A stretch of DNA of 40,087 nt from Rhodospirillaceae bacterium MC! (GTDB lineage: Bacteria > Pseudomonadota > Alphaproteobacteria > MC1). The translations under genes were made by a program, and so were the position numbers. Shown in pieces: positions 1,270 to 40,087 of this stretch. The stretch covers positions 1 to 40,087 of the forward strand of contig NQOV01000003.1 of the NCBI GenBank assembly GCA_002632265.1. The letters run 5' to 3'. The stretch's first letter is position 1, and each line of letters starts with the position of its first letter. The notes under the pieces were generated by a model. The model saw only the letters and a list, made by a program, of their open reading frames with translations. It had not been told where the DNA came from and did not search any database.

Positions 1270-1323
1270 CCAAACCCTTTCAAAATCCCTCCCCCACCAA
1301 TAACTTATCTCACACTACCCCAA

Positions 1324-1860
1324 GAGATTGAGAGAAAGGTCGTGCGATATGCCTTAACTTAAGGCGACATGTACTCACATCCACATAACCCCTAAAGTAA
1401 GGTTGCATATTATCCCACTTACCGCAAGCCTTAGGATTGGGAGAAATGGGATAAGATGTGCTTGTAAGCGGTACGCCGTGTACTTAATGCCTACACTAGT
1501 ACCGCTTACAAGTGCAGATCAGCCCACTTACCGCAAGCCTTAGGATTGGGAGAAATGGGATAAGATGTGCTTGTAAGCGGTACGCCGTGTACTTAATGCT
1601 TACACTAGTACCGCTTCCAAGTGCATATTAGCCCATTTATCACGATCCTATAGGATTGGGAGAAAGGTCGTGCGATATGCCTTAACTTAAGGCGACGTGT
1701 ACTCACGTCTACATAAGCCTTAAGGTAAGGTGCATATTAGCCCACTTATCACAATCCGTAGGATTGGGAGAAATGGGATAAGATGTGCCTTAACTTAGGG
1801 CGACGTGTACTCACGTCTACATAAGCCCTAAGGTAAGGTGCATATTAGCCCATTTATCAC
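1324..1860 (+). repeat. Five tandem 108-110 bp units, each with a large covarying hairpin
   Basis: The phrase AGGATTGGGAGAAA (or a variant) recurs at about 1324, 1433, 1542, 1652 and 1760. Each is followed by an imperfect hairpin: about 1333-1420, 1444-1529, 1553-1638, 1663-1747 and 1771-1855. The best, 1771-1855, has a stem of about 31 bp from AAATGGG to CCCATTT, a small inner hairpin GACGTG-TACT-CACGTC, and an unpaired TACATAA. Units 2 and 3 carry a different upper stem (CTTGTAAGCGGTA/TACCGCTTACAAG), still fully paired. The array fills the space between AbrB-family (+) and TrpR-like (-) genes and touches the latter's stop codon. Spacers are related to each other, so it is not a CRISPR. It could be a structured RNA array or an expanding palindromic element; I do not recognise it. 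Confidence 0.85.
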
Positions 1861-2147
1861 AATCCTCCCGTTAGTTGGTCGAGGATTTTTTTGTATTTAC
1901 TGTTATTATTTTGTAAATACTTTGCTACTCGTCCTACTGTTGTTGTGGAGCAGTTTATTATTTCGCTTATTTCTCGGTAGGAGTATTTTTTTGTGTATAG
2001 GAGTTGGGCTATTTTCCAACGTTCTTCGAATGATTCTCGTTCTTTTGGGGAGAAGAGGTCTATGAAGAATTGGTCTACATCTTTTGATGTTTTTAATTCT
2101 AGGATTGCGTTACTTAGGGGGATGTATTTTGGTGGTTGGGATGTCAT
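1857..2147 (-). CDS. TrpR-like YerC/HisR-family DNA-binding regulator
   Basis: A 96-residue protein matching the TrpR-related YerC/YecD family: NAILELKTSKDVDQFFIDLF, then SPKERESFEERWKIAQLL, then the helix-turn-helix YSYREISEIINCSTTTVGRV (about residues 56-75). Family knowledge: some YerC/HisR members (mainly described in Firmicutes) are predicted repressors of histidine genes. A complete his gene set begins about 3 kb away, so a role in his control is plausible but inferred. The ATG at 2147 has only a weak A-rich ribosome-binding region (an AAAAAAG run). The last codons overlap the edge of the repeat array, where AATCCTC...GAGGATT forms a small dyad within the 3' coding end. Confidence 0.8.
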   Translation of the reverse strand: MTSQPPKYIPLSNAILELKTSKDVDQFFIDLFSPKERESFEERWKIAQLLYTKKYSYREISEIINCSTTTVGRVAKYLQNNNSKYKKILDQLTGGL

Positions 2148-2403
2148 TGGCTTGTATGTGCTTTTTTGGGTTGGTTGAAATCGTCATGCAATAATGCTAT
2201 ATTTTATTATGATTTCTTGGGTTTGTTTGTTATAAAAATAGATCTATTTTACTTAAATGTCAAATGAAATTTAATGTAAATATAAATGCTAAGCTTGGTA
2301 TTTTTAAAATAAATAAATAAAAAGATTGTATTTGTTGTAAAATTTCGATATATTTATAGATAAATGTATTATGAAAGAATCACAAATAATAAGGATTTTA
2401 CAT

Positions 2404-3240
2404 ATGAAAAAAATAATTACTTTTATCAGCTTTATAATATTTGCTTATATTATGGTATCTGATACTTCTTATGCTGGTAGTGATGCTAATCAACAAAATA
2501 TTTTAGTGCAGAATCCTAAGGCTACGATTGTATTTAATAATGGTTTGTTGTATATTAAGCCTGCTTATAGATCTAGTTCTTACCGTATTCATATAAAAAT
2601 TGCAAAGAATAAACAGGCTTGGGCCCGTGGATTAATGCACAGAATGAAACCGTTGGGCGAATTTGAGGGGATGTTATTTTTATATCCTACCCCACGCCGT
2701 ACCGCCTTTTGGATGAAAGATACTTACCAAGATCTGGATCTTGTTTTTATTACTCCTAATTGGACTATTGAGTCTATGTATTCTGGCATGCCTGCCCAGT
2801 CTAAGGATTATTATTGGTCGGAAAAGGGTGTTATTGGAGCGGTGGAATTACGTAAGGGGTCTATTGAGGCCTTTGGCTTACATGCTGGCGATCCTGTATA
2901 TTTTACTGATCTTGATGAACAGAAGGTCCAACATAGTCTTGCACGTCAAAAGGCTATTGCCAATGCCAAAGCCCACAGAGCTTTAGACGCTAGAGAGGCC
3001 GCTCGCAAAAGAGCCTTGGCCGCTCGCCGAGCTAAAGCCAAAGCCTTGGCACGCAAAAAGGCCTTGGCCGCTCGCCGAGCTAGGGCTAGAGCCTTGGCAC
3101 GCAAACGAGCTTTAGCCCGCAAGAAAGCCCCAAGAACAAAACATGTTGCAGTAGTACAACATAAAAAAGCCCAAGACGGCTTTGTCTGTATTCCAGAATC
3201 TAAACTAAAAGCCCTAGAGAAAAAAGCTAACTCCCAATAA
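2404..3240 (+). CDS. Exported DUF192 protein with Ala/Lys/Arg-rich tail
   Basis: I prefer the ATG at 2404 (AAGGA at 2391-2395, 8 nt spacing) over an in-frame ATG 33 bases upstream. This gives 278 residues starting with a signal peptide, MKKIITFISFIIFAYIMVSD, and likely cleavage after SYA. The middle is a DUF192 domain (PF02643): ARGLMHRM, EGMLFLYP, TAFWMKDTYQDLDLVFI, and a final GSIEAFGLHAGDPVYF. DUF192 proteins are small exported proteins of unknown function. The rest, roughly 80 residues, is an unusual low-complexity tail of Ala, Arg and Lys resembling histone H1-like or TolA-like helices. It is built partly from a 48-bp (16-residue) duplication at 3013 and 3061. It ends FVCIPESKLKALEKKANSQ. 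It is single-gene, with repeats on both sides. The domain call is firm; the tail's role is unknown. Confidence 0.8.
   Translation: MKKIITFISFIIFAYIMVSDTSYAGSDANQQNILVQNPKATIVFNNGLLYIKPAYRSSSYRIHIKIAKNKQAWARGLMHRMKPLGEFEGMLFLYPTPRRTAFWMKDTYQDLDLVFITPNWTIESMYSGMPAQSKDYYWSEKGVIGAVELRKGSIEAFGLHAGDPVYFTDLDEQKVQHSLARQKAIANAKAHRALDAREAARKRALAARRAKAKALARKKALAARRARARALARKRALARKKAPRTKHVAVVQHKKAQDGFVCIPESKLKALEKKANSQ
3013..3108 (+). repeat. 48-bp coding tandem duplication in the basic tail
   Basis: GCCTTGGCCGCTCGCCGAGC occurs at 3013 and again at 3061, each followed by related Ala/Arg/Lys codons ending GCCTTGGCACGCAAA. The period of 48 bp keeps the frame and adds 16 residues per copy, so copy-number change would lengthen or shorten the tail without frameshift. 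Confidence 0.85.
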
Positions 3241-3248
3241 AAAAGACG

Positions 3249-3341
3249 TGAAAATGAGCTAATATGCACCTTAAATTAGGCTAAAGTAAACATGAGTACA
3301 TGTCTCGCCCTAATTTAAGACACACCTTGACTCATTTTTCC
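3249..3341 (-). repeat. Inverted copy of the covarying hairpin element
   Basis: Read on the minus strand, this matches the unit of the 1324-1860 array from the linker (GCTTACCGCAAACC, 3366 downward) through the hairpin to GGTGCATATTAGCTCATTTT. Its outer stem is AAAATGAG (3251-3258) with CTCATTTTT (3331-3339). An inner stem CTTAAATTAGG pairs with CCTAATTTAAG, and the apex ACATG-AGTA-CATGT is the reverse of the ACATG-TACT-CATGT apex. It sits between the convergent DUF192 and deoC genes, in sense with deoC. Confidence 0.8.
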
Positions 3342-3344
3342 ACC

Positions 3345-38026: not shown

Positions 38027-38070
38027 TCTTAAGAATTACTACGTAATGTAAAAGTTGAACCTTAGGTTTT

Positions 38071-38114
38071 AAACAAAAAGAGCAAGAAGTAATTACTTCT
38101 TGCTCTTTTTGTTT
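38071..38114. terminator. pflB terminator, 44-bp perfect palindrome
   Basis: AAACAAAAAGAGCAAGAAGT is followed by AATT and its exact reverse complement, which ends CTTTTTGTTT. It is a perfect bidirectional stem 45 bases past the pflB stop, suited to a highly expressed gene. Confidence 0.9.
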
Positions 38115-38225
38115 GATTACAAGTTGGCTTGGATCAAGTTCATACTTTAAAGAAATAAGAATTATTTTGCAGGAACTAATATTTTATATGCACTTATAAA
38201 GAACCCTAATATCATATGTTTTGCA

Positions 38226-39685: not shown

Positions 39686-39756
39686 CCTAGCTCACTAGGT
39701 CTCTATATACCCTAACTCGCTAGGATATTCTACAAGTAAAAATCCCACTAGGGTAT
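39686..39756. repeat. CTAG-rich short repeats with hairpin
   Basis: CCTAGCTCACTAGG (39686-39699) and CCTAACTCGCTAGG (39711-39724) are 25 bases apart, followed by CCCACTAGGG (39744-39753). ATACCCTA (39707-39714) pairs with TAGGGTAT (39749-39756). It lies in the presumed rRNA trailer. Confidence 0.55.
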
Positions 39757-39764
39757 TTTATTTG

Positions 39765-39863
39765 TGCTCAAAAGTGCCCAGTAGGCAGTTTTAGGCGATA
39801 CGTACATGTATACACAAATACCTAAGTATCGGCTAAAACTGCATAATGGGTGCTTTTGAGTGC
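39765..39863 (+). repeat. Covarying hairpin element near the 5S gene, copy 1
   Basis: An imperfect hairpin of about 99 nt: TGCTCAAAAGTGCCCA with TGGGTGCTTTTGAGTGCA, then GGCAGTTTTAGGCGATAC with GTATCGGCTAAAACTGC. The apex GTACATGTATACACAAATACCTAA corresponds to the GTACT...TACATAA apex of the array at 1324-1860. The GUGC/GUGC step with tandem wobbles is kept. Confidence 0.7.
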
Positions 39864-39907
39864 AAAGAAAATGGTCTAGCTTGCTTTTTGTGTGTATTTG
39901 TGTGAGA

Positions 39908-39992
39908 AAGTGCTTAGCCAGTGTTCTTAAGCGAGACGCCGTGTACTAACACGCCTACATAAGTCTCGCTTAAGGACGCTGGATGAGTGCTT
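39908..39992 (+). repeat. Covarying hairpin element near the 5S gene, copy 2
   Basis: A hairpin of about 85 nt whose outer arms AAGTGCTTAGCCAGTGTTC and GGACGCTGGATGAGTGCTT enclose CTTAAGCGAGAC/GTCTCGCTTAAG. The apex GCCGTGTACTAACACGCCTACATAA contains CGTGT-ACTA-ACACG. Nearly all stem irregularities are G-U wobbles if the plus strand is the RNA. It ends about 38 bases from the 5S 3' end. Confidence 0.8.
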
Positions 39993-40029
39993 TATCACGC
40001 AAAGAGACAGAAAAAGAGTGGTTTAGAAA

Positions 40030-40087
40030 GCTTGGCAATGATTTACTCTCCCGCGCCTTAAGACGAAGTACCATCAACACAAAGAGG
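40030..40087 (-). rRNA. rrf: 5S ribosomal RNA, 3' part (cut by window edge)
   Basis: Reading the minus strand from the window edge gives TGATGGTACTTCGTCTTAAG, then GCGCGGGAGAGTAAATCATT, then GCCAAGC. This is the conserved 3' half of 5S rRNA (GGTACT...GGGAGAGTA...GCCAAGC) and closely resembles alphaproteobacterial 5S. About 60 of the expected 115-120 bases are inside the window. The rest of the rRNA operon should lie to the right. Confidence 0.9.

Follow-up and report, generated by a model that had tools for sequence, protein, structure and literature searches.

Repeats in the window

The window, that is, the whole 40,087-nt stretch of DNA analysed here, holds eight copies of a large hairpin repeat. 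Five of these form an array of direct repeats at 1323–1866 (+ strand), each unit being a long imperfect palindrome of 108–110 nt, numbered here from the neighbouring gene outwards. Unit 1 (1759–1866, +), the gene-proximal one, has the best score (93.9 bits), and its core is identical to the gene-proximal units of contigs C1 and C7. Unit 2 (1651–1757, +) belongs to subfamily A, and units 3 (1541–1650, +) and 4 (1432–1540, +) to subfamily B, which has the tip GCCGTGTACTTAATGCCTACACTA; all three belong to the repeat family and are matched by the covariance model, unit 3 being recognised by its fold as well. Unit 5 (1323–1430, +), farthest from the gene, is the most degenerate (67 bits); it too belongs to the repeat family, and the model matches it at 1342–1414. 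The conserved tip GCGACGTGTACTCACGTCTACATAAGCC lies at 1801–1828 (+), the gene-sense strand being its complement.

The neighbouring gene encodes a TrpR-like regulator (1857–2147, −), identified through Pfam Trp_repressor and its translation, and its TGA stop codon (1857–1859) lies within an arm of unit 1. The last codons and the stop of this gene are supplied from inside the mobile element. Several further genes, for example on contigs C5, C7, C14 and C19, also get their stop from an element. Immediately ahead of the array is a short tandem AAAGAT/AGATAA run (1150–1180), and a different, near-perfect palindrome, TATTATTGCTGGCCTAA-ATA-TTAGGCCAGCAATAATA, occurs at 1229–1266, 3' of an AbrB-family gene. 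Similar GGCCTAAATA pieces are found near other arrays (L087).

A single copy (3245–3343, −) begins about 5 nt past the stop codon of a DUF192 gene (2371–3240, +), the product of which has a long, repetitive C-terminal tail rich in Ala, Arg and Lys (2946–3180). The two remaining copies lie downstream of a 5S rRNA gene, the 3' portion of which (40030–40087, −) was located by alignment to the 5S gene of L044; the gene runs beyond the window. The outer one (39731–39896, +; core hairpin 39760–39866) is the older, being common to the rRNA operons of contigs C8 and C17; the other (39880–40016, +) lies between it and the 5S gene. The contig itself ends within the rRNA operon, no more than about 150 bases from the right edge of the window, and C8 and C17 likewise terminate at paralogous rRNA operons with related elements. 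Such repeats break assemblies at rRNA operons, and may be mistaken for terminators or small RNAs. Another intergenic hairpin, perfect in appearance, occurs at 38070–38115, and both of its strands give sub-threshold matches to a plastid psbA 3'UTR model.

The first-pass annotation of this DNA had placed five tandem units at 1324–1860 and further copies at 3249–3341, 39765–39863 and 39908–39992. All of these were recovered, and the repeat-family analysis agrees that the array consists of five direct repeats of 108–110 nt. Compared with dinucleotide shuffles, single units fold with z values of −6.8 to −10.9, and the whole array with −13.7.

Copy number, covariation and the conserved tip

A covariance model built from 18 copies was run over the 2.05-Mb genome and gave at least 147 clear copies, which group into 71 clusters; two more surfaced in another analysis. 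The search for further copies which had been proposed at the outset was productive. Closer analysis drew on the sequence surrounding the copies and on sampled parts of the genome. It had also been claimed that the stems differ between copies yet stay paired, and the alignment of 125 distinct copies bears this out through strong covariation: 94.3% of cells are paired as against 80.5% when shuffled, both-sided changes occur at 12 of 17 pairs, and the covariation score is 0.473 compared with 0.219 for shuffled alignments and no more than 0.124 when partners are slid. These figures do not amount to a probability, given that the copies share ancestry and that the model was used to fit the alignment. 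Pairing is nevertheless kept by outer arms that differ as widely as AAGCATGGC/GCCATGCTT, GAAGTAC/GTACTTC and AAGTGGGGC/GCCCCACTT.

The constant part is the tip, C-GMC-RTGTA-loop-TACNY-WA-G. As had been noticed for the apex in a few copies, it is nearly invariant, and every one of the 125 rows keeps C at column 34, T at 36 and A at 39, 67 and 72. The stem common to all copies is RTGTA/TACAY, its R–Y pair being G–T in 57, A–T in 44 and G–C in 22 of 124 scorable rows, with one exception; unpaired within the tip are only GMC on the left and, opposite to it, WA on the right. The inner hairpin GACGTG-TACT-CACGTC, put forward in the first-pass annotation as part of the common architecture, is present in one subfamily, the generally shared feature being RTGTA/TACAY instead. 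Similarly, the “unpaired TACATAA” exists only in the minimum-energy fold of one subfamily, whereas TACAY pairs with RTGTA across subfamilies and genomes.

In Rfam no family matched at the gathering score, and below threshold the elements were hit by microRNA-type long hairpins; identification as a riboswitch or small RNA family was rejected for want of an Rfam match. Thus on the three points upon which the original proposal had been made to depend, further copies exist, covariation exceeds that of shuffles and Rfam offers no named family.

Mobility and growth of arrays

When three rRNA operon ends of the genome were compared, the contig of the window (C3) was found to have 137 extra nt (39880–40016) relative to C8 and C17. 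This insert is a complete element. Since it lies between the 5S gene and the older element common to C8 and C17, the new copy must have entered gene-proximally. A clear target duplication is absent at this insertion; in this genome TA often flanks the ends of the elements.

The arrays themselves are polar. Of 35 arrays, 26 have their best score in the gene-proximal unit, where 12.6 would be expected, gene-proximal units are the most like copies at other loci (median identity 0.97, dropping to 0.84), and distal units lose pairing. Tandem arrays are youngest beside the gene and probably grow by repeated gene-proximal insertion. Half-exchanged (chimeric) units exist as well, and a good number of changes affect whole blocks in the two arms.

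A T7-like prophage with genes for a head-tail connector and tail proteins (L066 10075–19999; contig C18, approximately 125–135 kb) carries five copies between its genes, so that these copies entered after the prophage or arrived with it.

In G110 and G214, two genomes of one genus within the same class, a 104-bp element with the ends TATAGCTAGA...TCAGCTATA occupies 18 unrelated sites. For one of the G110 copies, G214 shows the corresponding site cleanly empty, the only such case found between genomes; the lengths fit a TA duplication, but the TATA ends make this ambiguous. G110 also has longer variants of the element (L183, L193), in which the right half of the tip is swapped for about 30 nt of other sequence and the ends are intact.

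The same tip in other genomes

When 385 genomes belonging to the class were scanned with the pattern GMCRTGTACN{4,10}TACNYWAG, it matched 12 times in G214, seven in G110, five in G290, four in G197 and three in G344, with single matches elsewhere; control matches in those five genomes were 0. As the invariant tip bases of these matches are partly a product of the pattern's construction, the independent test is provided by the arms, which lie outside it. Their pairing greatly exceeds that of random stretches in G110, G214, G197, G323 and G010, does so less strongly in G344, G290 and G267, and is lacking in six other single matches within the class. At least seven further genomes from the class thus have the same tip on paired and unrelated arms (G110, G214, G197, G344, G290, G010 and G323). 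Furthermore, the covariance model made from this genome alone recovers elements of G197, G344, G110, G214 and G290.

A sample of 398 genomes from the phylum yielded only four matches from other classes, all of them lacking paired arms, and conserved occurrence across all proteobacteria was rejected on the basis of this sample. A genome-collection match in Spongiivirga was rejected as due to chance, and viral contigs scanned for exact patterns of the tips of this genome returned nothing.

The first-pass annotation had left a choice between selection on structure and the spread of an element that carries a loop motif of its own. The multiple copies, the rRNA operon polymorphism, the empty site and the presence of the tip on unrelated arms together lend good support to spreading.

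Position and orientation

An edge of the element lies −12 to +10 nt from a same-sense stop codon in 48 of the 65 clusters with both neighbours mapped, 7.0 being expected from uniform placement in the same gaps (maximum 17 in 20,000 simulations; ORFs were called mechanically, so that some short genes are missed). The far edge is separated from the next gene by a median of 158 nt and adjoins a convergent stop in one cluster only. Orientation relative to the gene is constant, the gene-sense strand being the complement of the tip as it was first written (the CTWR...GKC strand). Elements are also found 3' of 5S rRNA genes. The genes next to them make up a random-looking housekeeping set, among which there is no candidate enzyme.

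There is one orientation per contig arm in 66 of the 71 clusters, while the strands of the genes would lead one to expect 53.5±2.9. GC skew is negative on contigs with plus-oriented copies and positive on those with minus-oriented ones, near-zero contigs being left aside. Judging from the skew, the gene-sense strand of the element is likely to have the sequence of the leading strand and so to form the lagging-strand template. This claim is confined to the present genome, since G110 has copies on both strands and shows no replication-strand polarity. Stop-codon adjacency and strict orientation were likewise not seen in the other tip-bearing genomes.

Nature of the elements

We take the repeats to be copies of a non-autonomous mobile palindrome (MITE-like, of the Correia type) of about 105–110 bp, which is defined by its tip and moved in trans, and would put the probability of this reading at roughly 0.6. 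What we have is a palindrome that is mobile and non-coding, and not a demonstrated RNA family.

One might instead suppose a selected 3'-UTR RNA element, in which the hairpin either shields the 3' end of the mRNA or leads to its processing (RNase III, exonucleases), or else delays the ribosome at termination, an RNA-binding protein sits on the tip, and mobility explains the distribution only. A selected mRNA function could also account for the position of the copies, their tight spacing from stop codons and their fixed orientation to the gene, and copies are also found behind 5S rRNA. E. coli REPs no more than 15 nt from the stop codon are described, with reference to earlier work, as acting on translation (PMC12306157), and Correia hairpins of Neisseria bind RNase III (PMC2649163); both facts are counted for this explanation. 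It is nevertheless rather unlikely, for the neighbours are random-looking housekeeping genes, pairing is lost in distal units, the copies in other tip-bearing genomes are not fixed behind stop codons, and the extra replication-strand bias is left unexplained. The transcribed hairpin of a mobile element could plausibly also have a secondary role in the decay or the translation of mRNA.

Block-wise changes in both arms, chimeric units and an orientation which tracks replication would all be accommodated if intrastrand template switching at replication kept the palindromes symmetric, the covariation then being a mutational by-product with no selection for pairing. This proposal leaves unexplained the asymmetric conserved tip, its recurrence upon unrelated arms in other lineages and the polarity of the arrays, and we hold it to be improbable.

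The resemblance to REP, BIME and REPIN sequences and their RAYT (Y1 HUH) transposases had also to be weighed. Those are intergenic multicopy hairpins with tandem clusters and a preference for gene 3' ends; the present hairpins of about 110 nt are similarly multicopy, intergenic and clustered, show a strand bias and, in most subfamily A copies, have GTAG on the sense strand. REPs and REPINs are, however, defined by a GTAG/GTGG (or CGTC) tetranucleotide at the foot of the hairpin (PMC6006769, PMC3733652), and here such a foot is absent: GTAG is located in the tip, which is the conserved part, and is replaced by GTAA in about one-third of copies. Nor was Y1_Tnp (PF01797) found in this genome, which is 95.5% complete, or in five of the seven others in which paired arms confirm the tip. 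Movement by a RAYT is thus very improbable. The suggestion that the copies are intrinsic terminators, which their strong hairpins immediately behind genes might invite, is very improbable, as just 3 of 71 elements combine a hairpin with a T-run and terminator-like sites occur beyond the element as often (9/71) as behind ordinary genes (49/362).

Returning to the mobile palindrome, we envisage that the element encodes nothing and would depend on a trans-acting enzyme for its movement. Ordinary MITEs are defined by their ends; here the defining part would be a strand-specific hairpin tip composed of a C–G closing pair, a GMC/WA internal loop, an RTGTA/TACAY stem and a variable loop, and this tip may be recognised by the mobilising machinery. 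The long arms would need only to pair, their sequence drifting by compensating steps and at times being swapped between units. Our best guess is that a putative trans-acting protein binds the tip once the palindrome has folded, either in an exposed single strand of DNA or as a cruciform. New copies would be inserted at TA-rich spots at gene 3' ends, where selection presumably tolerates them, among them the very stop codon and the region following 5S rRNA, the CTWR...GKC strand being gene-sense, and arrays would be extended through successive insertions at their gene-proximal edge.

The recurrence of the tip on unrelated arms in distant bacteria shows which part is constrained, and a 25-nt hairpin might serve as bait for the protein. 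With stop-codon targeting and age-ordered arrays the history of insertion becomes readable, as with leader-side insertion in CRISPR arrays.

Comparison with known palindromic elements

CGTC-tagged REPs, among them RPE-4 and RPE-6 of Rickettsia, come from the alphaproteobacteria, the class to which gene content assigns the present genome, and have no known dedicated transposase (PMC3733652). They are 20–40 bp long with an unpaired CGTC at one end, whereas the present elements are of 105–110 bp and have no terminal CGTC.

ERIC and RUP are closer in size and are palindromic and MITE-like. RUP is tied to IS630-Spn1 through shared ends. DDE_3/IS630 (PF13358), the DDE family covered by the search, was not found in this genome, and an IS630-mobilised MITE was rejected on that ground. 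ERIC of E. coli and RUP of the pneumococcus measure approximately 107–127 bp and have TA at their termini (PMC2229807). An E. coli ERIC copy (L226 96–240) has CAGGAAGGCGACAA and TTACATAAG around its tip, which may resemble Correia CAGGACAAGGCGACGAA and the tip described here; it differs in lacking the GTGTAC stem. A common origin of ERIC and Correia elements is possible and is offered as a lead only.

The nearest relatives are Correia (CREE/NEMIS) elements. A tip scan of IMG/VR viral contigs gave 107-nt palindromes, TATAGTGGATTCAATT...AATTCACTATA, the BLAST matches of which were repeats of N. gonorrhoeae (76% from end to end, at 27 places) together with a copy on a Conchiformibius plasmid; by sequence these palindromes are Correia elements. 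The statement in the first-pass annotation that no named family has this apex is therefore half right: literature searches found no description of the present hairpin family, but Correia-type elements of the Neisseriaceae do possess the apex (Conchiformibius GCCGTGTAC-GGGTA-GTACATCAGG). Correia elements are mobile, TA-targeting non-coding palindromes, the mobilising machinery of which is stated to be undetermined (PMC2649163, PMC2229807). The likeness extends to length and number, for Correia elements are multicopy palindromes of 104–108 bp and here units of 108–110 nt occur in at least 147 copies. The IMG/VR homologues carry the tip GCC-GTGTAC-loop-GTACAY-WA-G; that of Conchiformibius is GCC-GTGTAC-GGGTA-GTACAT-CA-GGG, with CA replacing WA, and that of a gonococcal CREE copy has diverged (GAC-AGTAC-AGAT-AGTAC-GGCAAG).

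The terminal inverted repeat of Correia elements is TATAGTGGATTAA; the ends found here are TAGGATTG...CAATCCTA or AAGGNNGTG... and do not contain it. The elements of G110 and G214 share TATAG...CTATA ends with Correia, and their full-length alignment to gonococcal CREE is significant (z 4.6–5.4), while that of G010 is suggestive (z 3.0). Subfamilies A and B of this genome give z 0.4–0.7 against gonococcal CREE, which is not significant, and 0.4–3.5, near chance, against three Correia-type references; the tip alone joins them. Adjacency to stop codons with fixed orientation and gene-proximal growth of arrays set the present elements apart, no report of either having been found in the CREE literature. 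Because they lack the Correia ends, we have not filed these copies as Correia elements, even though behaviour and tip are shared.

More speculatively, one may imagine a tip-defined superfamily of mobile palindromes spanning alphaproteobacteria, Neisseriaceae (Correia) and perhaps enterobacteria (ERIC), in which an undescribed enzyme, acting on single-stranded DNA, reads the tip and not the ends, the present genome adding insertion in one orientation at gene 3' ends and gene-proximal array growth; we advance this as a tentative idea. Since the tip is common to unrelated stems in the class and to Correia elements, the repeats described here are best seen not as a system of a new kind but as a branch of the Correia-like MITEs that is new and has diverged strongly.
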